From the NCBI GenBank assembly GCA_001574975.1, contig KQ965767.1, positions 337,460-371,228 of the forward strand: 33,769 nucleotides of DNA, written 5' to 3'. The position numbers and the translations under genes are program-made. Below, in pieces: positions 10,811 to 30,525 of the stretch (positions are counted from its first letter, which is position 1; each line of letters opens with the position of its first letter). The notes beneath the pieces were generated by a model, which was not told where the DNA came from, searched no databases, and was given only the letters and a program-made list of their open reading frames with translations. This stretch comes from Gonapodya prolifera JEL478. Lineage: Eukaryota > Monoblepharomycota > Monoblepharidomycetes > Monoblepharidales > Gonapodyaceae.

Positions 10811-11199
10811 AATGTATGAACGTTCTGTTTTCGACTGGCCGTTCGTGTGGAATACAAATAGTCGGAACCATTTGCACCACCTTAAATGCTCAGATTCAAG
10901 ACTCGAATCGTTTATGGGTAAAACGTCTTCGTCAGTTCTTCCACCGCGTTTGCAAGAGCCTCCCCAGCTTCAGGTATCTCAGGAGACTGGAAGTGCTTCA
11001 TGAAACCACTGTCGTTCACCGAAACAGGTGAACAAGGGGACAAGATCGAGAAGCAGATCCAACTCGTCGACTTACTGGTTCAGCGTGGGGTAGTGCGAGT
11101 GTACTACGTTGGAGAGGGTTGCTGCAGCGGGCCGCCTGCACCAACGCTGGCGGTCCGACAGGGTAGTTACGCCGTGGGCGTGGGCGTTCCCTGAGGCAG
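10811..11199. other. Intergenic region 3' of SmD3
   Basis: About 390 bp between SmD3 and the promoter-like block at 11200. No open frame here looks coding, and no RNA gene or repeat was recognised. It presumably holds the SmD3 3' UTR and the upstream promoter of the next gene. Confidence 0.4.
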
Positions 11200-11230
11200 G
11201 ACGCCGCCTCGGCGTCGCACAATATATAAG
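11200..11230 (+). promoter_or_regulatory. GC-rich dyad followed by TATA box
   Basis: GACGCC (11200-11205) and GGCGTC (11211-11216) form a perfect six-base inverted repeat with a five-base spacer. The spacer GCCTC is itself the complement of GAGGC at 11193-11197, so the dyads are nested. A TATATAA box begins about ten bases downstream (11223-11229). The layout suggests a protein-bound dyad next to a core promoter. The probable target is the membrane-protein gene at 11742. Confidence 0.45.
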
Positions 11231-11741
11231 CCGTACTGGGGTAGCATACATAGTCTAACACTACAATACATCACACTCTACCCACTTCTACTTCTCGTTC
11301 ATACTTATCAGTGACAGTACCGTCACAATTCAGTGATCCAGAGTTCATTCAGTGATCATCATCACCCTTCTGTTCTTTGAAAAAAATTCACATTCGTCTG
11401 TGCATATTCTTCCCATGACTCTAGAAATATTCCAACAAGTACCTCCTTCACAACAAAGGTTTGGATATGCACCTCTCACGTTGTGTATCACTTGCCCCTG
11501 CCCCCCGCCCTCGCCCTGCCCTCAACCTCGACCTCGCCTGCGTGCAATCAGCAACATGTTAACGGTTCTTTCAAGGAAGCAAGCTGGAATCCGACCAATT
11601 AATTTCAAGACATGGGAGTGAGTATACAATTAAGCTCAGAAGAATGATGGGGGTGCGCATGTCTTGGCGCCTTGGCGCCTTGGCTTTAATTAGGAATGTC
11701 TGGGGACAGAGGCACCCGAGTTTGAGACTAGACTTGTCTCA
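11231..11741 (+). other. Probable 5' leader or small ORF region
   Basis: This stretch lies between a TATA box and the next ATG. It holds an AT/C-rich leader with a repeated TTCAGTGATC (near 11328 and 11349) and an ATG at 11415 that could encode about 69 residues (starting MTLEIFQQV, ending INFKTWE). A GTGAGTATAC donor (near 11619) and a TTAATTAG acceptor (near 11695) flank a stretch containing repeated CTTGGCGC. These features fit a spliced 5' UTR, possibly with an upstream ORF, for the gene at 11742. A separate short gene is possible but unproven. Confidence 0.3.
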
Positions 11742-14701: not shown

Positions 14702-16698
14702 ATGCTGCGAGGCTCTCCTTCCGCCTGTCCGTCGTCGGACCCTCGCAATCGACTCCCCAAACCCCACACAACACAGTGGCAGAACCGTTCACGTTTGATC
14801 GCCTCTCCCCTCCTCGCTTTGTTCCTATTTGTTTGCTCCACATCTGCCCAGCAACAACAGCAATCGAATAGACAGCCGCTTGCTCATCAGGTGCGTTTTG
14901 GAGGGGAGGCTTCGATGCGGAACTCGCCGATGCTCAACGAATCCCAATCGCTTCAGGTCTGGTACGGCGATTCCGTGAAACCACCATGCAAAAACTACAC
15001 GGAGACGTTTGACGACGCCACGAAAATGAGTGAGTCTTCGGTCTCTCTTTCCCTGGTCCCTCGGATTTCAAGCAAGCTAATTTCCACCATCCCTGCATCC
15101 GCCACACTTTGTCTACTGTCACAAAGTCTCCTGGCAAAACTGGTTCAATAACCCTGACCAAGCTGTGTGGATTATGGAGGACGCGCAGAACGCTAAAATC
15201 GCGAACGGGGAGCTTGTGCTCCAACTGCTCGGCACTGGCACATCACCAACCACGGGAAAAAAGCAAGGTGAGGGGGGCATCTATGGGCACCGCTAGTCCC
15301 ATTACTCACCCTCTCTATCGCATGCACTCGTCCCATTACCAACCAATCGACACCATTACATCCCTGCCACTGTTCGAAGGCGCTAACGTCATCGTCGCAC
15401 ATTCTCGCTGGTTCCACTACGGTCTCGTTCAAGCAAACATGAAAATCGCCAAGGGAAAGGGTGTCGTGTCGGCGTTCATCGTGGACTCGTTCACTCCCGG
15501 ATACAACCCTGGCGACGAGTTGGATCAAGAATGGACGGGTCAAAAAACGTCCACCTACCAATCCAACTGGTTCAGTCTTGGTCAGTTAAACTACCCAGTG
15601 GGTGCGGCCGCAGCTCAACAGCATTATGGAAACGGACAAGAGGTGAATGGAACGGCAGACTTCTCCGCGGAATACCATACTTTCGGCATGGAGCGCACTT
15701 TCAACTACGTTCGTTGGTTTATCGATGGGGTTATGGTCCGCGAAGTGACGAGAGCCGAAACCGGAGACCAATACTTCCCCGATCGCCTGGGGGCGGTGGT
15801 GAGTTGTGTACGATTTTCCTTGCTCACCGTTGAGTCTTGAGCCGTGTGCCTTTGTACACCGATACCTTCAGATGTTCAACATCTGGGACGCGGGGCAGCA
15901 GGCTAATGGTACCCGAGACTGGGCTGGGTGTGTACCCTTTTGAACCTTTGAATATTTCCCCATCTACCGTTCAACTGACATCTTCGCCAACTCCATATCA
16001 CAGAGGCGAGACTGACTGGACGGTCCCCGATCCAAACCCCGCATACACGGTTCACGTCAAGGATTTCCAAATAATATGCTACGACAACCCTGGTAACTGG
16101 ACCCCGCCTACGGCGACAATCACCGCCACGGTCCGTACCACCGCTACTCCCTTGTCGGCGGATGGCCCCATGATCTTTGGAACCATCCCGATGATGCCTA
16201 TGATCGGAGTTGGCGTGGCGTTCTCGTCGGTCGTCATTTTGATGTGCGCCGGCGCGCTCGCGTCGGGATGTGGGACGAAAGACATGGCTCCGTACAATGT
16301 ACGTTCACTTTGACCTGTCGCGTGCCTTAAGTGGTCAAGGTATCGTTACCTTTTTCCCTTACAACCAGATGTACGACGAAAATCCCTATGCGAAAGCAGA
16401 AGCTGCCCGCACCACAGTGGAGGTAGCTTACGCGGTTCCCGTCGCTGCAGGCGCTGCCGCTGTCGGTGCAGCTGCAGTTGTCGGGGCCGCTGCCGTCTCG
16501 TCTCGCGGACAAAGCGGAGGTGGGCGTCCTCCCTCACGCGGCCAGCAAATGGATCAGCGTAGACCGGCGAGTGGGGCTCCGGCAAGGCCAGGTGATGCCT
16601 ACGACGGAAGGCAGCGAGGCTCGACTCCCCAAGGGGAACGTCGTCGAAGCAGCTCTGCAGCACCCGGTGATAGGGGCCAAGGTGGACGAAGGCGATGA
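14702..16698 (+). CDS. GH16 Crh-like wall transglycosylase, membrane anchored
   Basis: Six exons (14702-15029, 15127-15267, 15380-15798, 15872-15927, 16004-16298, 16369-16698) give 522 residues. A hydrophobic signal segment (about 33-50) ends near SAQ. The GH16 catalytic signature is DELDQEW at about 202-208; the expected nucleophile E203, assisting D205 and acid/base E207 are all present. Downstream, YVRWFIDGVMVREV, FPDRLGAVMFNIWD and GGETDW match the Crh group, which links chitin to beta-glucan in the wall. No cysteine-rich chitin-binding module precedes the domain. Instead of a GPI signal there is an internal TM helix (about 381-402) followed by a cytoplasmic tail of about 120 residues. 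That tail is Ala/Val-rich, then Arg/Gly/Ser-rich. Fungal Crh proteins are often GPI-anchored, so this architecture is notable. Activity is inferred, not shown. Confidence 0.88.
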
Positions 16699-18719: not shown

Positions 18720-20307
18720 TTACACGAATTGGGTTACTACTTTCCGTCCCGTTACGAGGCCCTTTTCCAACTCCTCGAAAACATGGGGAACCTCGGAAAG
18801 CTTGCACCCCGAAGTGAGCGGGTGCACTTTGCCAGTTGCGACAAGATCAAGAACAGTCTTGGCGTCCTTTATCGAGGGGTGCCCAAGTCAGTGACCTAGA
18901 AACATCATGTAAACTGGGTTTTGGAACTTACGTCAGTGGAGCCCAGTAGCGATCCCATAATCTTTATCTCTTTGGAAAGAATCACAACGGGCATGTATTT
19001 TACTTCCGCCATCGTGACACCTATGGTATGGAGGTGGGTTTTGATATTTATGACGTAAAATAACAATTCAGTTACCAATGCTTCACTCACCAATGAAAAC
19101 AACGGTGCCACCTCCTCGTACGAGCATCCACGAGCTTTCAAATGCGCTCGCGGCGGTCGTGACAACCAATAGAGCGTGAAGGCCTTTTCCATCTGTCTGA
19201 GCGATCACCGCACCGGGCAGTCCACCCTTATCCGCAGGAGCAGTTGCAGCGTTGACGACAACATCAGCACCGAGCTTTTTGGCTTCAGCGAGCTTTCCAT
19301 CGTCAATATCAATGGCGAGAGTCTAAGTGGTCGACGATGGTGCAACAAAAAAATGTGTTGTAATTGGTGGATTCGTACAACGGGGTGTTGCCCACATCAA
19401 CGGCAAACCCGACAAACCTTGTAGCCAAGCGCCTTGGCGACTTGTACCCCCATCAAGCCTAACCCTCCTGCTCCCGAGAACCCAATCCAGCCCCCCTTAG
19501 GCACGTTGGCACGACGAATAGCTCCGGTTACTGTTACTCCGGCACTTGAAAGAAGTGGATCGAACCGTTTGAGTTCGGCCAAAAAAAGTCGAAAAGAGTA
19601 AAGTGTCAAGACCCATTTTATGAGACCCGATATCCCCCCTCCTTGCCGCGTGTAGCGGGAACTCACCATCCACAAGGTCCTGCTTTCTCAAACGATACGT
19701 TGTCGGCAAGTTTTACGATAGTTTCCGCACTCGTCACTGCGTACTCGGCGCTACCATGACACAGGTTCTTAGAGTTGAATAAAGCAGAAACACGACAAGA
19801 AAACTTCGTACAAGCATCCCCACACTTCCCCAGCGTGCCATTTCTTCTGTGCACATTGGGTAACGAATCCTTCCAAACAGAAGGAACATTCACCACATTG
19901 GCCGTGGTGCATGGGGACGGAGACCTAGCAGAGACGGTCTTCGGTTGGACAAAAGACACACCCCGGCCTTGTAGCAGTGCGATTGAACTCACCCGGTCAC
20001 CAACGTTCCAATTAGTAACACCCTCACCGAGCACCGCGACAGTTCCTGCGCCTTCGTGGCCGAGGATGTGTGGGAATGTCGTGGTTGGCGGTCCGACTCG
20101 CCAGTAGAGCTCGTCCTATAGAGGAACGAAAAGCCTCGTGTTTGAAAAGGGGTGCCCGTGATTGAGAAGACGACAAGAGGGACTCACAGTGTGGCAAACA
20201 CCGCACGCTTCAATCTTCACCAGCACTTCACCCTTCGCCGGAGAAGGGGTGGGGACTTCACCGATGGACATGGGCACACCAGGTGCAGTCATGATGAGGG
20301 CTTTCAT
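18720..20307 (-). CDS. Zinc-dependent alcohol dehydrogenase (MDR superfamily)
   Basis: Eight exons (20307-20188, 20115-19993, 19924-19826, 19767-19667, 19544-19418, 19322-19091, 19020-18932, 18866-18720) give 345 residues, the usual length for a tetrameric microbial/fungal ADH. It should oxidise an alcohol to an aldehyde with NAD(P)+ or the reverse. The catalytic zinc ligands are visible as C38 in GVCHT, His in GHEGAG and the Cys of CAGVTV. The structural zinc site is the C-x2-C-x2-C-x7-C run starting at QCGECSFC. The Rossmann fold has GAGGLGLMG and, after it, AIDIDDGKL. The C-terminus (LEKGLVTGRKVV) is typical. An upstream in-frame ATG at 20367 would add 20 residues not found in the family, so 20307 is preferred. 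The substrate cannot be told from sequence. Confidence 0.93.
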
Positions 20308-20743
20308 GGTCTGTCGGTGGAAGGATTTGTGGGGTTTCTTTTCGCCGGGAGACAAGTAGCCGGACAAGTCCGAACCTTCGGGATCGTCATCGTTTAACAG
20401 TGATTGGAGACGGAGGGTTGGGGTACGAAAGGGATCAAGATTGCAGATGGGCAGGGAGACTTCCGATTGCTTTATGTTTATTTGACGGACAATCCGATGC
20501 CGACAAATCTCAGCCTAAACGTAACAATTATGAGCCGAAAAGAGCGACCGCCATTCAAAAACGAACGATTTCCGAAGCTTATCATTTCACTTAAACCACA
20601 CGAATAAATGTGATACAGTTTGCTCAAAATTGAGTGCAATATTTACGGCACTGTGGGTAATACATTACGGGTAGTGGATGGAAAGGTTCAAAATTACCTG
20701 GCAAAAGTCCGAATGTCCGAGTCCCAGTCCAACAATGGCACGT
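20308..20743. other. Intergenic region upstream of ADH
   Basis: 436 bp between the ADH start and the stop of the next minus-strand gene. It holds the ADH promoter and the 3' end of the 899-residue protein gene. No clear TATA box, repeat or RNA gene was seen. Confidence 0.4.
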
Positions 20744-23579
20744 TTAGCGTCTCTCCAATTCCTTACCATCCTCTGGGTATCTGTCAATCTCATCCCCACC
20801 AGAAGAATCCCGTCCTGGGTCACCATCGTCATTTCTATCCATGTCGTCACTACTGTCATCCGAATAACGTCGTTCAACTGTCCACACTCTCGCCTCAAGC
20901 TCCGGGTCCCAGGTGACTCGTTTGCGACCCGTAGTAGTCCCATTGCTTGAAGTCGAGCTCTGTCGGCCGACCGGTGGATCGAAGGATGACGTTCGTCTCA
21001 AGACTGGGGTCGGACCACGCGGTCCCTGTCCAATAAACGCGGCAAAGCTGCCCGTCGGGCGTGAACCGGAGTCGAAGACAGGGGGTGCGAAGGTGGTTCC
21101 CGGCATTGACGGATACGGCAGCATTTGGGGAGAGTAGCCAGCTGAAGCTAGAGATGGAAGAGGGTACGACGGAGAACTTGCGACGGTGGAATCGGCAGAG
21201 GCTGGTCTCGATGAAGAATTCGTGTACGCTGGGGACGTTGGGCCGAGAGCATTTGCTGCACCAGGTTGATTTCCCCGAAGCCTAATTAAAGTGATTCGTA
21301 CGTCAGTATAATTGAAGTCGGTGCACCAGGGGAGTAGACGCAAAGATAATTACCTTCGCACGAGCTCGCCCATTACCAATCGCCTTGGAGCCCCCGCGAC
21401 CACCGCCTCCCGCAACTCTTCCGCCTCGAGCTCCTCAAACCTGACATGTCTCCACAATACCTCCTTGTCGACAGGATGGAGAGTGGGCCATCGCGCCAGG
21501 TACGCTGCCACAACCCTAACGACGTCTGCCGGTGGGGTTTCGAAAGGATTTCCAGGACTGACTGCGTAACGGAGCAGTGCGACCATGAACGTAAATGACA
21601 GTGATACGAAGGCTTCCTCCGAATATGCCCCTTCGGCTATTCTTCGGGCAGCCTCTTCCAAGACACGCAGACGGTCCGCTCGTGGGTGAACGTATGCAAT
21701 CTCCAATCCAGAAAGCGTGAGACGGTCGAGGTTCTTTGGCGGCGGGTCCGCATCCATCGACATGGGATTCCGGGCGCCGTCACTGCTTTCCTTGAGTTGC
21801 TGCATCGTGATTCCAACATCCTCCCATCGCGATCGCGGAGAGAGAGCTCGCGAGGTCTCTTGAGCTTCGCCAGCGCCGTCCGAATCTGCATCAGACCATC
21901 CGCTGTCGGCATATTCGGGAAGGGGATCAGTCGACGGTGTGCCCGCTCGAGCACCGGTCTGGCCGCGCTGCTGATCACCATTCGACCGCACAGTGCTCTT
22001 CGACGAGTTGGACTGCATCGTGGAATCTCCCGCAATCGACGTTCCTTGACCGATGTTAAAGAACTTCCCATCAATAAATGACAGTCGAACGGAGAGAACT
22101 GGCTCTGCAGCGCCGGTCGCGGCTCCGTCCGCCCGTCGTGGAATACCGCCAGTATTGGAACTCCCGTCATTCGGTTGTCGACTATCACGACCCCGGGACT
22201 GTTCCAGTGACGCCCGAGGTTGTGGACCCTGTCGTTCTTGTTCCAGGGATTGTCGTGGTGATTGATCACGTCGGTCAAGCGACTGTCGCGGGGACAGAGC
22301 CGCCCGTTCGAGTTCAAGAGATTGGCGAGGAGAAGGTACGATGCGGTCGATAGAGGTGCGTGGCTGTTGAGCGTCCAAGGACTGTCGCGGGGAGGGATCT
22401 TTGCGCTCGAATGACTGGCGAGGCCGGTTCGGGGTTTGGTTCTCCGGCAAGTCGTCTGCTCGCGGCATGTTGGAAGTGGTTCGAGGTGGTGTTTTGACGC
22501 TCCCCTTCAAGAGAAGTTTCTGTCAGCTGGTGCATGGCAATTATGGGAACAGACTGCAAATCCCTTACCGGGGCAGGCTTCACCGTCCCACCCTTCAGAG
22601 ATTCCGGAACACGACGACGTAGGGAAACGGTGTTCGCCGCCTGTCGCTCAACGGGAGGGAGCGCCGACATCTGCTGACCACCGCTGGCCAATCCATTGTC
22701 GGGGGAAAGCGGACTGTCTGTATATCCTTGCAAAACTGAGCTGAGCACCGGCTCCGGATCAGCCACGGGTGGAGAAGGTGTGGCGACAAAGTCGGGTGGG
22801 AGAGATGGACCACCGGAGGGTCGTTCCCGTTCGGGGGTGCGACGTCCTGACGATTCTGACTCCTCGAAAGAATACCGATCGTCTTGATCATCGTCTCTCA
22901 CATCAGAGAGTGGTTTGTTAGGTTGCGAGTCATGTGCGTTGGCGTAGAGTTGACTAGGTGCACTTTGTGAAGTGGGAAGGGGACCTCGTACGGATGAAGA
23001 AAACACAAGACTTTGCTTCAGTGACGGTGTCCGTGGCAATCCAGCTTGGACACTGAGGTCCTCCGCCTGGAGCGACGCCCATCGCTTCGGCGCAGGAGGA
23101 GCATTTGGCGGTCTCGCCTGAGATAGCAACCGACTGGCTGCGGCGGCGGCGGCGGGATTATTGCGGAGGCTATATGAAGGCGTCTGGACCACCTCCTCGA
23201 GTGTTCGTGGCATCCCCTTTTTGGGGAGTCCACCACCCCGTCCTCCCGACTGTGGTAACACCTCCGAGAACGGCGTTCGAGGCGTGCCCAGTGATTGAAA
23301 GAAGTCTGGTCGCCCCAACAAAGTGGCCGTTTGCTGGCCCATCATGTTGCGCTCCAGCTCCTGACGCAGGGTTCCTGCTCTCCTCCTTGTATTTGGCGAC
23401 AAGGGCGACCTTGGACTTCGCGCTGGAGCTCGTGGCGAAATCCGTGGCGAGGCGGGAACGGGACTTGTCCGACTACGGTCCCTGCGCTTCCTTGCCCAGC
23501 AGAGACAGACGACTTTGAGGCGGCGACAAGTCTCACAGATGGTGGGAATGCGTATGCGCGGCCGTGGATCACTGAACAT
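20744..23579 (-). CDS. Large disordered protein with BACK-like repeat and RVxF-type motif (paralogue A)
   Basis: Three exons (23579-22569, 22504-21354, 21281-20744) join in phase to give 899 residues. The N-terminus has C-x2-C-x6-C (CETCRRLKVVC) and a basic run, but no second half of a Zn2Cys6 cluster. Residues about 40-590 are Ser/Pro/Arg-rich and probably disordered. They include seven degenerate copies of SPRQSL[DE] followed by 4-7 residues (about 364-440). A helical domain lies at about 594-721. It opens with a segment containing VLEEAARRIA, then has a BACK-like unit of the pattern VVAAYLARWPTL...VLWRHVRFEELEAEELREAV. After a Ser/Pro linker comes KRVTWDPELEARVW (about 841), a fit to the RVxF docking consensus of protein phosphatase 1, then an acidic end. 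The same two elements occur in the divergently transcribed gene at 24598. Function unknown; a scaffold or adaptor is my inference. Confidence 0.82.
22196..22426 (-). repeat. Seven-copy SPRQSL peptide-coding repeat
   Basis: Within paralogue A, residues about 364-440 contain RPRQSFERKD, SPRQSLDAQQ, PRTSIDRIVP, SPRQSLELER, SPRQSLDRRD, SPRQSLEQER and QPRASLEQSR. The period varies from 10 to 13 residues. The constant core P-R-[QTA]-S-[LFI]-[DE] places a serine two residues after an arginine, as in basophilic-kinase sites. Confidence 0.8.
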
Positions 23580-24597
23580 GAAGACCCCGCGATCCCCGCG
23601 GGCTCGTCACCGTGCGGGAGGGTCACAGAAAGGTATGCTGCCAAATGGAGGCGTCCGATGCTACGCTCCAAGCCAAGTGTAGTCTATAGTACGGTACACG
23701 TCTCCAGCTGCAGGAATCGTGGGCGTGGGCTCGCTGCTTTCTGACCGGGATGTTGGTGCTAGCGGCAGTGCCTCTCCCTTGGAGCGCAGATCAAAACGCC
23801 GATCTGCTTCAGTGGCTTCGGGTTATTCAAGTGACGTGCGAGTCTCGCAGATTTCGCCTTCTTCTTGTGGTGTACTTTTGCAAAAACCGCGAAAGAACGA
23901 TTTTTTGCGGGTCACTTCCATAATTAGGATTCAGGGCTCGTGTGGTCAACGTTGATAAGGTGGAGCTGCAGAATATATCAAATGAAACGGACAAAGAAGG
24001 CCGTTTGTGATATGAATGATATTCGTCTTGGGTACATGTTCGAGTGCTTTTCTCTCTCGTTGTCAAATGGGCCCCACGATATTGCTGCGCCTCGCGGGGC
24101 GGACGGAATCAATGACAGCTGTAGCAGAGTGGCGCCAGTCAGTTTTTCACAATGTGATCCTTGACTCTTCGTGTTCTCCTTGCTTGAGTGCCCCTCGAAG
24201 GTTCACCCCACACTCGGCTCACCGTTCCGGAAGCTCCTGTCGGTCGCTGCTCTGGGGCGTCGAGAACCCTGCGTAGGCGTTGTGGTGGTGCTCAAGGGCC
24301 CCGATGGCGAGAGAAACTGGTTCCTGAGTGGCTTTAGGTTTTACAGGCGAGTGGTCCCCTCGGACACCCCGTCTAAAAGATCAACTGCCGGAATTCTCAA
24401 ATTTTGTGTCAGCGGTTTGTAGACTGATGGAATTGAAGATTCTGTTGATTTGATTTTTGTCGCTAAAAAATATCCAGAAGAGGCAACGTGCTTCGGTCCG
24501 GCGACTGTAGACCCAAAGTGGGGCTGCAGCATCCGCGAAAGGGAGATACCACACCGGGTGTGTCGCCCACGTCCGCATCATCGCTCCGCCTGCAGCG
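23580..24597. promoter_or_regulatory. Divergent promoter region between paralogues A and B
   Basis: 1,018 bp separate the start codons of the two head-to-head paralogues. Short open frames here show no gene-like properties. No clear TATA box is visible on either side. The arrangement would allow shared regulation of the pair. Confidence 0.5.
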
Positions 24598-27500
24598 ATG
24601 CCGTCCCTTGTCTTGAGCAAGGCGCCGTCCAAGGACAGTCTGTGGGTCAGCCCGGCGGACATGCAAGGCCAACTCTCCCGCCACAGCATGGACAAGCCAA
24701 TCAGCGAGGTTGGCTACACGGTCGAGGTGCCCAGACCGCGGGTCGTCAAGAGGAGAAAATCTCTGTGGCATCTGCTGTCTCGTTTGTGGCGCCGACGCTG
24801 TGAGTGTCCGGTTTGGGGATTGGCAAGGGCGGCAAGCATCAACGCTGACAAATCCCATCCACACAATTTCCATCGGCTTCAATGTTTCCTCCCCATTCAA
24901 CACCGATCGTTGGTGACTCGCATCAGCCCCTCGCCGTATTCGCGAGACGCCATCCGAAGAGGGTGTGTCCTATGACCCCTCCAGTTACTCTTCTGCTGGA
25001 TCGCTGGGACGTCCATCAATGTCATCGTTGCGAAGCTCTGTTTATGGCCGTTCCAGCACACCGACGTCGGTGGTGTCGGGTCTGGACTATTCCCCTGACT
25101 TTGCTGAGATGGAAGGCCCCTCTGTAGCAGACCCTTTTTCACGTTTCAGAGTGGATCCAGAGTCCCTCCCCCCAACTGGTCCCCGTAGAGTTCACTCTTC
25201 TCTCTCCCTCCGTTCGCGTCCTTACACTCCCCTTCGCATGGCGATGTCCCCCTTACCTGGATGGGAACCGTCACTCTTTTACCCGCAACCTCAACTCGTC
25301 GACATAGGAATACAGGTCGACCCACCAGAGGAAGATCAGCAGCCGGTTCCAGTTCGGTACGCGGAGTCTGTTTACGACTTGCCCCTCCTGGACGAACTCC
25401 CCGAATCGGACCCCACCGCCGCCGCCGCGTCGAACCGTGACCCAGCACAAGCGGACAGTCCGCGTACATCTGAGTCGTCGAGCGCCGACACGGTGGTCGG
25501 GACCGATGAGCTGGACTTGTCGGAAAAGTCCACAGGTGTCAGCGAGGTGAGCACCAATCTCGGTTTTGTTACGGACCTCCAAGAGTCACACCTGCATTTC
25601 AATCCAAATGCAGCCATTCCCCTCTGCCTCAACCACCACAGAACCCACTTCTGAATACTCCCTACACAAAGTGGCATCCTTGGCTTCGATATCCGGCGCT
25701 CGTCCAAAACCCAATGCGCATCTCTGGCTTCAAGTCAAGCCCCGACCTTCCTCGACGTATTCTCAAACTGGGGAGGCCTCTACCGGAACCGGTGTCGATG
25801 AAACACACATTGACCTCGATGCTTCGACTGCGACGTTGCCGGGGAAGTCGCCAAGCACACCGCAGACCCCTTCGGCGTCCCCACGGGATACTGCAGCCGG
25901 CACCTCCTCCATCCCAATCGACACGAAACCCAGCGAGCAACAATCATCCGCTTCTGGTGAACCCCGACCGTCCAGTTCCGGAAACCCCCTGGTCGTCTTG
26001 CCAGCATCGATCGCAGTGGAATTGCAGCTGCTCGCGGAACTTGCGGAGGGCGTCAAAGGAAGCCCCGATATTGGCAAAAGGGAACTTCCAGAGCGCGTGT
26101 ACGATACTTCCGCCCTGGACGCTGACTCAAAGGGTGTGGACGTGCCCCCGTCGGCGGGTATTCTTCCTGTTGCAGAGGTCGCGGTAGATTCGGGCGTTCC
26201 AACCGCAGAGGACACGAAGATCGAAATGCCCACCGCTCGCGTCACATCGGTGCTTGCCGAACCGTCTCCACAGCCTGAGACAGAGCTAAAGCCGAAAGTG
26301 GACGTACACGAGACAGCTGGAGAGCCTGTTTCTGATCTACCAATACCCGCGGGGGTACCACCAGCAGCGGAGACGCCCCGGGAAAAACCTTCTACGGAGA
26401 CTGCTCCTACCGAATCTGCAAGCGCGGATGAACCCCCTAAACTGACCGGTCGTGCTTTGCGTGCCGCCAAACTGGCCGAAGCAAAAGCTGCAGCGACAGC
26501 CTCGACAGCGAAGAAGCCCGGAAAAGTTGCCGATATTATTCGTCGGTTTGACGTGTTGATCGAGGAAAAGACTGTTGAAGCTGGGGCAACGAGCCCGGTG
26601 GTCGCCTCTCCAGGTGAGGAAGGTGGAACGTTTACATCGTTTCGAACTTCCATTTGACATGTTAAATATCGTTAGCGCGAGGTCGTCCGGCATCTCTTCG
26701 GGGGGAATCGCCTGCCCGAGCTTCACTTCGGGGAGAATCACCTGCTCGACTACCCGACTCCCCCAGCACACCAACGACTCCACTCCGTCCTCGCCACCAC
26801 TCTCCCGTCCGTATTCCCGCAGTTCCCGTGACAGCCGCTCGAGGGAGGGCTCCACACATCACCACGAATCTGTCCACAAAACCTGTCGAAGCTCTTGTCC
26901 CTGTTGTACCGGCTGTAAATACGGATATCAGCCTTCCGAGTAAGATCATTTCCGATGGACCTAGCGGTGATCAGAATACCCCGGCACCCGCAAGCCTGGA
27001 ACATTCAAGTGAAGGCGTAGTGGTGCCGAAATCGGATGAAGCGCCAGCTTTTATCGGTGGTGGGGATCCACCCAGCGCTGATAGCTCTGAAGCACCACCA
27101 GCAGTCGTCAAATCAGACCTTGAAGTACCCAGCGCAGATGTGGAAAAGCAGACGTTGCCATCACCCGCGCCGTCGGAGAAATTGGAACTTTCTTCCAGTG
27201 TCAAAACTTCTTCAGCCACACATCTTGCTGAGCCGGGGTCTCCGAAAACGCCCGAGGTGTCGACAGAGTCAGTCGTTGTTGCCCCTCTCCCGAGCACTCC
27301 TGCACTGGAAAGTGACTCCAAAAAGACAGACTCTCAGAGCGCAACGCAAGAGGCCCCCTCGATACAGGTCCAAGAGGCTGGTATGTCATCGGCGATTTCC
27401 AACTCAGATCTCATAGTGGATACGAAACCAATACCCGAGTCATCAAACGATGGAACTGCAAAACCTGGATCCTCGACAGAGTCCTCCCAGTTGCCAGTTT

Positions 27501-29790
27501 CTGTGCAGCAATCACCCGAGGATTCCACGACCCATACTAGTCCAAACGTTACAAAGACGACTATCGTTGAATCCAAACCTCCTCCTTCCAAATCGCACTC
27601 TGACGTTCCTCGAAGAACTTTTTCGGCGACGGCGAAAGCCAAGAGCTTTGCCGAGTCCAGTATTCCACCTTCGGCCTTGGATATTCCCCAGGTCACCTTG
27701 CTTGCAGTTGAGCGGTCGTCTTCGACTAGTTCGCTCTCGTCCTCGCAAACGTCTGTTGGAGCTTCGGAGGCCAAGCAAAAGGAGAAGGGCTCGTCTGTCG
27801 AGGTAAAACTGAGTGCCCCTAAAAGAACGGTCTCTGCCACCCCTCGAGCTAAAAGCACTGCGGAACAAAGTATCGCTACAAAGCCACCTGAAATCATGGA
27901 GCGTTCGCCCGCGTTTATGACCGCTTCAACATCGACAGAGTCCATAGTACCAGTCGCTTCCTTGAATGCTCCTCCTACGGCGGTCACTGGATCCACTAGT
28001 GTGAAGTTGCCAGCTTTCTCTCGGACTTTTTCCTCCGTTGGGCAGTCACTGCCACCAACAAGTTCGACTTCATCTCTCGCAGCCCAACCAACTGCAAGAG
28101 CTGCGCCATCAAGATCACCGACCCCACAATCGACCGGAGGCCTTAGTCCTTTGGAAGCTTTGCGGCGATCGGTCTCAACGAATCCCGACCCACTCGCACG
28201 GTTCCATCTTGTGCGTAATTACACCACTTCCAACCCCTCTCTCCCCGCTCGAGAGAATCTTCAACTGTGGACTCTAGTGCCATTCGCAAGACTCCACGTC
28301 CCTGTTCTTCAAACCGCCCTCATCGATCACGCTGTACCTCTGGAACTGCTACTCGACGGTGCGGCACTGAAGATATCACCGGGGAGTGGTGCTGACGATG
28401 CACTTATCACGAGCTATTCGTCGGATCTTTTCCACGCTGTGGTGGAGCATGCCATTGATGTCGGACTTTGGACGCACGCCCAGACGTTCAAAATCGTGAG
28501 GACGTATATATCTGCCCACCCACAGGAAGAGACAAATGGAAACATGCCACCCGAGGCTCTCGAACCACCACCGCCGCTTCCTTCCGCTTCGGAGCCGATC
28601 AAGGCGAAACCATTCGTTCCACCTGTGACTTCAGGCGGCGGCAAGGGACTTTTGACGGTGCCATCGGTCAACCCACAGGCGGAGACTGAAGAGGAAGATG
28701 GATGGGACGACGATGAAGTTGAGTGGGAAGTTAGGGAGGTACACCCCTTGGGTAAAGAAGAACGAGAAGGCGCTGCACTGTCGAACCCGTCTTGGAGGTG
28801 AGTTTCCGCTGTTAAGTTTCGTCTGAAAGTTTTTGTCCTGATTTCTGGATACTTACCGCCAGGAACCCCTTCCATGGGGAGGAAGAGCCGAACCCGGAAA
28901 CATTGCATATTGTTAGCCCTTCAGATCCGGGATCTGAAGAACCCGACAACAACGACTCTTCCCAATTCACGCCCGAGCTCGCCGTTCTTCCGCTCTCGTC
29001 GGTCGTGGACATACTCCGCACAGGCGGGGGCAGCGACGGAAGCTTAAGCTTCGTCACGGCCAGAAAGTACATTTACAGTCGCTTGCTGTGGGCCGAACCG
29101 CTGACGGAAGCCGAAGGTCGGGCACTCTGGTCCGAGGTGAAATTCAGCAAGCTCGCATTGTCGGAGCTTGAGCTGGCGTATGACACACCAGGCGTGGACC
29201 CGTCTGCCGTGTTGGAAGAAGCCGCGCGGCGGATAGCTGGTGAGAAGGATGACAATGGCGAGTTCATCCCGGATGACGACTTCGACCACATTCTCGCTAC
29301 TGCGTTCTCCGTGGAGCTGTTCTTTGGGGTGGTTGGGTTTTCTCAAGGAGCAGCCAAACGCCGCTGGACACCGTCTCAAACTCTGAAGGCTGTTTCAGCG
29401 TACGTGCGGAATCGCCCGTACTTGGATCCCACGGTGAAGTCGCACCTCTGGGGATATGTGAGGCTGGACCAATTGACTCCGAAGGAAGTCTCCGAAGCCT
29501 TGAAGACTGGAGTTCCGTCGGAACTGCTCGATGGAGTCGATTTGTCAAGGTTTGTTGTTTGATGAAATCAATTGGATGTGTTGCAATAATGATTGATGAT
29601 GTTCCCGTTTTCCAGCGCTGACGTCAATGCGGGGGAACCCCTGGGAACTCCTTTGGAAATTTCTGCCCCACCAACGAACCGTATAACTAAAATCCGCTGG
29701 CATACGGAAGTGATGGTTCGCGAGATTCCCGCACGGAAGAAACGACCCCAGTCGGTGTCTTCCATGGAATCTGAAGTTTCCTTTACCTGA
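24598..29790 (+). CDS. Very large disordered protein with BACK-like repeats and RVxF-type motif (paralogue B)
   Basis: Six exons (24598-24799, 24927-25546, 25614-26613, 26676-28797, 28863-29549, 29616-29790) join in phase to give 1,601 residues. A short basic N-terminus (KRRKSLWHLLSRLWRRR) is followed by about 1,000 residues rich in Ser, Pro, Thr, Ala and Glu, with little predicted fold. Helical units follow. Unit 1 (about 1096-1225) contains LQLWTLVPFARLHVPVLQTAL. Unit 2 (about 1356-1440) contains RALWSEVKFSKLALSELELAY and VLEEAARRIAGE. Unit 3 (about 1483-1542) contains LKAVSAYVRNRPYLDP and LWGYVRLDQLTPKEVSEAL. The pattern LW..V.F..L...EL..A resembles BACK-type repeats of BTB proteins, but no BTB domain is present. 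Near the end, TKIRW (KIRW about 1569-1572) fits the PP1 RVxF consensus. Units 2 and 3 and the terminal motif align with paralogue A in the same order. Function unknown. Confidence 0.83.
26690..26749 (+). repeat. Tandem 30-bp repeat coding ASLRGESPAR twice
   Basis: Two adjacent 30-base units (26690-26719 and 26720-26749) encode the same ten residues, with differences almost all at third codon positions. The silent divergence means the peptide has been conserved since the duplication. It lies at the start of exon 4 of paralogue B. Confidence 0.8.
27611..27874 (+). repeat. Two copies of an RT[FV]SAT-AKS-AE-SI peptide motif
   Basis: In paralogue B, RTFSATAKAKSFAESSI (near 27611-27664) recurs as RTVSATPRAKSTAEQSI (near 27824-27874) about 210 bp downstream. 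A weaker third match is SRTFSSVGQSL near 28020. Such conserved islands in an otherwise low-complexity chain look like short linear binding or phosphorylation motifs. Confidence 0.6.
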
Positions 29791-30046
29791 GTAAGTCAAT
29801 CGATCACGCATGGTGTCTTTCTTTTGGAATCTACGGGAGAGAATGCTGGGAGTTGGTATACCGCGCTGCAACGACGTTGTACATGTTCGTTCCCACGTCA
29901 CGTAATTTTGAAACGCATTTGCATATTGGATTATGTTGATTGTGCTTTTTTAATATAATTATTTTTTGAGTCCAAACATAACTCGGTCAGTTTGAGATGG
30001 GGGTGGCATGGGTGAAGACCGGTAGAACTCTTATCGCCACACTTCA

Positions 30047-30525
30047 ATGATATCCCCCCGGGAGACAGACTCTGCACCCGTAGACACTGGACCGGGCTCT
30101 GCGTCGGAAGCCAAGCGGCGAATAATGGAGCAGATGGAGGTGAGAGCTGGAGGGGGGCCACTCGAAGAACCATCGCAAAACGCAATCGCCTCGCGCCACC
30201 ACGCCAGGCGGCCAAGAAAAAGGCGCCAGAAATGAAGAAAACATGGAAGGTGGACACTAACAGGAGTACTGTGAGTTTTCCTTTCGTTTGGGCAATCGTC
30301 ATTGTGTTGATTCTACTACCTTGCTTCCTCCGTCGTATCTTTTCTTACAATCACCACGTCTGCAGCCGGAAGGAAAGTTCAAACCTAAAACTGCCTTCAG
30401 TGAGTATATCCTCTTTCCACTCGGTGACGCCTGTGTTCCATGAGGTCCAGTAATCGCTTGACCCTATCCTATTTCTCACAGAGGAAGCCCCTCCTCCACC
30501 GAAAAAACTCTCGGATCTTCCGTAA
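30047..30525 (+). CDS. Small 77-residue protein from four tiny exons, unknown function
   Basis: Four exons (30047-30139, 30208-30270, 30366-30399, 30482-30525) join in phase with GT-AG introns and end at a TAA. The product starts MISPRETDSAPVD, has a short charged helix (EAKRRIMEQMEAAKKKAPEM), then KKTWKVDTNRSTPEGKFKPKTAFKE and a Pro-rich end (APPPPKKLSDLP). It has no membrane segment, cysteines or recognisable domain. The consistent phasing of three introns within 480 bp supports a real gene. It is 256 bp downstream of paralogue B on the same strand. Because no exon exceeds 93 bp, such a gene is easily missed by ORF-based annotation. Confidence 0.6.

Follow-up and report, generated by a model that had tools for sequence, protein, structure and literature searches.

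The window, that is, the whole 33,769-nucleotide stretch analysed (C37:337460-371228), comes from the 47.6 Mb, 207-contig assembly of the early-branching aquatic fungus Gonapodya prolifera and contains two divergently transcribed paralogous genes, here called A and B. They encode large proteins with long disordered arms and no BTB domain, in which BACK-like helical units are the sole part recognisable as folded. Elsewhere in the same genome such units follow a BTB domain in tandem, and the tails of A, B and a third paralogue, C, carry a motif that fits the RVxF pattern of docking to protein phosphatase 1 (PP1). The two genes are best placed as BTB-less branches of a Gonapodya family that usually consists of BTB and two tandem BACK-like units, and we tentatively propose that they act as PP1-targeting scaffolds.

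Gene models and the second copy of the pair

Gene A lies on the reverse strand (20744..23579) and encodes 899 amino acids in three exons (23579-22569, 22504-21354 and 21281-20744), as defined by the spliced model and the copy on C144. Gene B lies on the forward strand (24598..29790) and encodes 1,601 amino acids in six exons (24598-24799, 24927-25546, 25614-26613, 26676-28797, 28863-29549 and 29616-29790). In the gene models the two are separated by 1,018 bp (23580..24597), and their products have exactly the lengths given in a sequence-only reading that had described them as a divergent pair. The sole database match of gene A was a G. prolifera JEL478 hypothetical protein, identical over the searched region. 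The deposited model of A, M427DRAFT_155839, has 596 amino acids and begins at residue 304, so that the first 303 residues are missing, including an N-terminus that is identical between the two genomic copies.

The second copy of the A-B pair, on C144, has 88% DNA identity and was named the homeologue because other stretches of the window also pair with C144, at 71-85% identity. After splicing, the C144 frames encode 897 (A) and 1,602 (B) amino acids with zero internal stops and with the GT/AG ends kept. Indels in exons were multiples of three; most of those in introns and in intergenic DNA were not, the latter as expected for non-coding DNA. The ratio of non-synonymous to synonymous substitution rates (dN/dS) between homeologues was 0.131 over A as a whole and 0.233 over B. 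For single segments it was 0.063 (residues 1-60), 0.179 (61-590), 0.010 (600-726), 0.084 (727-845) and 0.456 (846-875) in A, and 0.118 (1-80), 0.199 (81-600), 0.374 (601-1090), 0.130 (1090-1215), 0.077 (1216-1440), 0.160 (1440-1545) and 0.824 (1546-1601) in B; the elevated values at the two tail ends (A 846-875, B 1546-1601) rest on few changes. On the strength of the dN/dS values and the conserved frames, the reading of A and B as pseudogenes was rejected.

The helical module and its BTB-bearing relatives

A retains one BACK-like unit, equivalent to unit 2 of the family (21356..21730, reverse strand, residues ∼596-720). It was delimited by genome search, homeologue identity and dN/dS, and lies inside a 136-residue run that is identical between homeologues. 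B carries two modules on the forward strand, at 28154..28531 (residues 1101-1226) and 28966..29547 (residues 1350-1543), with an acidic linker between them. The first of these, noticed earlier as an extra N-terminal unit, is real: the E paralogue as a genome query matched C37:365631-365987 (E 3.9e-12), and the unit-2 profile matched there too. A and B share the string VLEEAARRIA (A 618-627, B 1431-1440) and a unit of the form AY(L/V)...P.L...LW..VR(F/L)..L...E(L/V).EA (A 671-704, B 1494-1527), and a search of the whole genome with the A domain found B at 40% identity (E 2.1e-11). This E-value, together with intron phase, ruled out chance similarity. Searches of the own genome at E <= 10 gave 19 matches for the A domain (self included; 15 at E <= 0.01) and 31 for the B domain, and other queries brought in additional members.

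An AlphaFold2 model of the second module of B (1350-1543) was almost entirely helical, with a predicted local distance difference test (pLDDT) score of 82.4 and a predicted template modelling (pTM) score of 0.78. When this module was searched with Foldseek, KLHL11 BTB-BACK structures had the top probabilities among the 50 matches listed (0.85-0.87, E 2.2-3.0); fold families other than BTB-BACK were also present in the VIA lists. The BACK likeness that had been suspected from a sequence pattern was supported, with the BACK fold itself being putative. The Pfam BACK profile gave no match to the domain in searches up to E 10, nor to full-length A and B up to E 1. FSH1 was considered as the identity of the B domain and taken as a chance match (12.8 bits, cut-off 21). 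The helical part of this sequence family was matched by no Pfam model here, BACK included.

The unit-2 profile matched A, B, C, D (in two frames), E, F, G, H, P, Q, R, S, T, U, V and a member on C3, giving a family of ∼16 genes, 11 of which were seen in two copies. In D the unit pattern was visible in two successive frames. Members with BTB are laid out as BTB, unit 1, unit 2 and a low-complexity tail, and profile comparison showed units 1 and 2 to be homologous (97.5%, E 7.8e-12); the module is therefore a tandem repeat. A phase-2 GT donor follows unit 2 at an equal place in 13 of 16 open reading frames, A and C included, and is lacking in T and F; in B, an intron of phase 2 occupies the corresponding site. 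The donors outside A and B were read from the DNA sequence rather than from transcripts. Genes C, D, E, A and B are clustered within ∼80 kb of C37, D and E being divergent as well. For two BTB-bearing members on C83, G (C83:72354-73562, L014) and H (C83:81872-83626, L035), a unit-2 counterpart was absent from C37:318000-337459, where one might be expected.

The absence of BTB from A and B was confirmed: no Pfam family matched either full-length protein (E <= 1), and the 27 genome-wide matches to PF00651 (BTB) all fell outside the window. A BTB signature pattern devised for this analysis was likewise absent from the window and from all five loci at which C, F and the second copy of the pair on C144 reside. 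It was present at seven of nine control loci, the other two holding U and V. Pfam BTB scored above its cut-off in nine of the ∼16 family genes (D, E, G, H, P, Q, R, S and T), D being counted only together with its neighbouring pieces. U had a weak match below the cut-off (13.2 bits), and V and the C3 member had no PF00651 match. Since the domain follows BTB in nine of ∼16 genes, A and B are best described as BTB-less branches of a BTB-BACK-like family. In correction of the earlier reading, the domain is no isolated novelty in this genome.

A tree of unit 2 was built from 26 rows, leaving out S (C11:154529), the C3:440150 member, both copies of the first module of B and a weak C128 match. It placed A, B, C and F, none of which has BTB, in one clade (support 99/99), and with the long-branched F removed A, B and C stayed together (84/93); both trees were flagged for long branches that meet. 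The simplest reading of these trees would be a single BTB loss before A, B, C and F parted. A sister relationship of A and B was not rejected by the approximately unbiased test (p-AU 0.458), nor was it favoured; the best tree without F paired B with C at a support of just 47/17. The proposed origin of the two genes by inverted duplication was accordingly neither supported nor dismissed.

Three protein searches returned no relatives outside Gonapodya (the query with A gave nothing beyond the deposited model of A, a paralogue profile found four proteins, all from Gonapodya, and B found none, itself included), a weak absence given that the searches needed shared five-residue words and a length window and that in two of them scoring was confined to the top word-sharing candidates. 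Two of the Gonapodya proteins, HDU93_002866 of Gonapodya sp. JEL0774 (P0003, 556 amino acids) and M427DRAFT_308471 of G. prolifera (P0002, 454 amino acids), have helical units like those of A and B by profile. Unlike A and B they are shorter and contain BTB (34.6 and 35.1 bits, respectively, cut-off 20.5), and the tail of P0003, the orthologous BTB member of the family in JEL0774, has no RVxF pattern. Compared with BTB-BACK proteins of the KLHL11 type (PF00651 plus BACK), A and B lack BTB, kelch or any other Pfam domain, show no Pfam BACK match, have the units of a family in which these stand in tandem, and bear very long disordered arms. In the open-licence PubMed Central literature nothing was found on G. 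prolifera BTB, on fungal BACK, BTB or Cullin-3, or on BTB family expansion in chytrids, and no fungal paper on BTB-less BACK was found by title.

The C-terminal motif and the proposed role of A and B

The short C-terminal motif that had been noted in both proteins is present in A as GRKRVTWDPELEARVWTVERRY (20864..20929, reverse strand, residues 839-860) and in B as TKIRWHTEVMVREIPARKKRP (29686..29748, forward strand, residues 1568-1588), and it fits the RVxF-type pattern [RK]x(0,1)[VI]{not P}[FW], which we take to be the PP1 docking pattern. The matches near the protein ends, in tails judged disordered from their composition, are RKRVTWDPELEARVW in A (position 841), TKIRWHTEVMVREI in B (position 1569) and KKVRWSTKTSVMII in C. 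All three have the tryptophan form, with the common core [KR][VI]xW. The pattern has no other match in the 1,601 residues of B and two in A, both within the folded unit. Among 10 family tails four matched (A, B, C and G), whereas F, P in two species, R, D and E, six in all, gave no match. For C, D, E, F, G and R the tail sequence was taken by eye from the frame that follows unit 2, with putative acceptors. Shuffling gave 0.062 for A, 0.067 for B, 0.035 for C and 0.038 for G.

Human PP1 matched three loci of the genome (C1, C6 and C64). The six RVxF pocket residues named in the available part of PMC3387161 (Ile169, Leu243, Phe257, Leu289, Cys291 and Phe293) are conserved at both loci read, C1 and C6. 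Arg261 is replaced by Lys at C1, and the sequence read does not extend over the Leu296 position. Further groove residues include Val264, Tyr78 and Leu296.

Like the PP1 regulatory subunits Ypi1 and Ki-67/RepoMan, A and B have a low-complexity tail with a core of the form basic-[VI]-x-[FW]. According to the portion of a review of fungal phosphatases that was available (PMC6506691), yeast Ypi1 has a motif of the same tryptophan form, RHNVRW, and the W53A change abolishes binding. Ki-67 and RepoMan bind PP1 through RVxF and downstream phi-phi residues, as described in the accessible part of PMC5005033; compared with Ki-67, the downstream hydrophobic residues are, judged from the sequence, plausible as phi-phi in C, arguable in A and irregularly spaced in B. 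Unlike these regulators, A and B have an RVxF-like sequence as the only PP1 motif established, their folded part is BACK-like and their PP1 binding is putative. The identity of the motif between homeologues carries little information: residues 835-865 of A differ by no amino-acid and two synonymous changes, which is weak evidence of constraint, and residues 1568-1588 of B by neither kind of change, which says nothing about it, so that these stretches give no power for or against selection on the motif.

In BTB-BACK proteins BTB binds CUL3 and dimerises, and BACK is known from CUL3 adaptors, where it accompanies BTB. Under the proposed scaffold function, A and B, which have long disordered arms, would have shed BTB and kept the helical module. 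The BACK-like module would be the recognition part, binding a localisation partner or a substrate, the arms would serve as tethers, and the C-terminal RVxW could fit the RVxF groove of the PP1 catalytic subunit and so dock it; where BTB is present, the equivalent module would serve a CUL3 adaptor. It is a bolder and rather unlikely extension that a subset of the family changed pathway, dropping the ubiquitin-ligase-binding BTB and gaining a PP1-docking tail, in which case A and B would be two such adaptors under divergent transcription. If true, one recognition module would bring a phosphatase rather than a ligase to its targets, and such a module would be shown to move between the ubiquitin and phosphatase pathways.

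A and B may instead have stayed partners of the ubiquitin pathway, with the putative BACK-like module pairing with BTB-BACK paralogues or their substrates, so that, lacking BTB, they would act as scaffolds or compete with CUL3 adaptors, and with the C-terminal motif binding something else. The BTB-BACK-like nature of the parent family, the CUL3 adaptor role of animal BTB-BACK proteins (reported in the part of PMC1257465 at hand) and the presence of the BTB-bearing D and E in the same C37 cluster speak for this possibility, but the main CUL3-binding surface went with BTB, and we regard it as doubtful. The long low-complexity arms, several blocks of which do not differ between homeologues, and a motif common to deep paralogues though the remaining tail is unalignable by eye, would also fit purely structural scaffolds. 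In that case module and arms would organise a structure of the cortex, flagellum or nucleus, and the C-terminal stretch would engage a partner other than PP1, as a beta-strand or as a peptide ligand. This we consider unlikely, as the shared core [KR][VI]xW is a PP1-docking pattern with a fungal example of the tryptophan type in the available part of PMC6506691. That A and B are functionless remnants of decaying BTB genes, as the missing BTB, the low-complexity expansions and the truncated deposited model of A might suggest, is highly improbable, given the open frames and kept splice sites in both homeologues and the dN/dS of 0.13 and 0.23, with 0.010 in the A domain.

Genome context and other features of the window

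Partners of window DNA were found at 71-88% identity, chiefly on C144, and most family genes exist as two near-identical copies on paired contigs (C37/C83, C28/C101, C17/C183 and C95/C51). The paired copies look as in an allodiploid or after an old whole-genome duplication; the part of the genome paper available (PMC4494064) mentions neither paired copies nor duplication. Relative to C144, the A-B segment (window 20502-30338) has the opposite orientation to its short flanks (20131-20500 and 30328-30500), the pattern that an inversion would leave if its breakpoints lay immediately beyond the two genes. No long inverted repeat was found in the window at these breakpoints, and the four inverted repeats detected (20-30 nt, 72-76% complementary) look like chance.

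The N-terminus of A (23478..23579, reverse strand, residues 1-34) contains cysteines in a CxxC...CxC arrangement and is identical between homeologues. A Pfam search of residues 1-80 gave no match, and a Zn2Cys6 or other zinc domain was ruled out on that ground. B has a basic/aromatic N-terminal segment, RRKSLWHLLSRLWRRR (24751..24798, forward strand, residues 52-67), identified from sequence, for which a part in membrane binding or nuclear localisation could be inferred at most.

No RNA genes were detected in the window (no Rfam family at gathering scores and no tRNA). A sequence of ∼217 bp at 11111-11327 recurs with 89-96% identity at nine places on eight other contigs and, less alike, elsewhere; it is not in Rfam and is perhaps a solo long terminal repeat or a short interspersed repeat. 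Further Pfam matches in the window comprise a C2H2 zinc-finger protein (1988-2287, 37.8 bits), a GH16 glycosyl hydrolase (15109-15840, 85.8 bits) and an alcohol-dehydrogenase-like frame (19397-20034) with only a sub-threshold match to ADH_zinc_N (13.8 bits).
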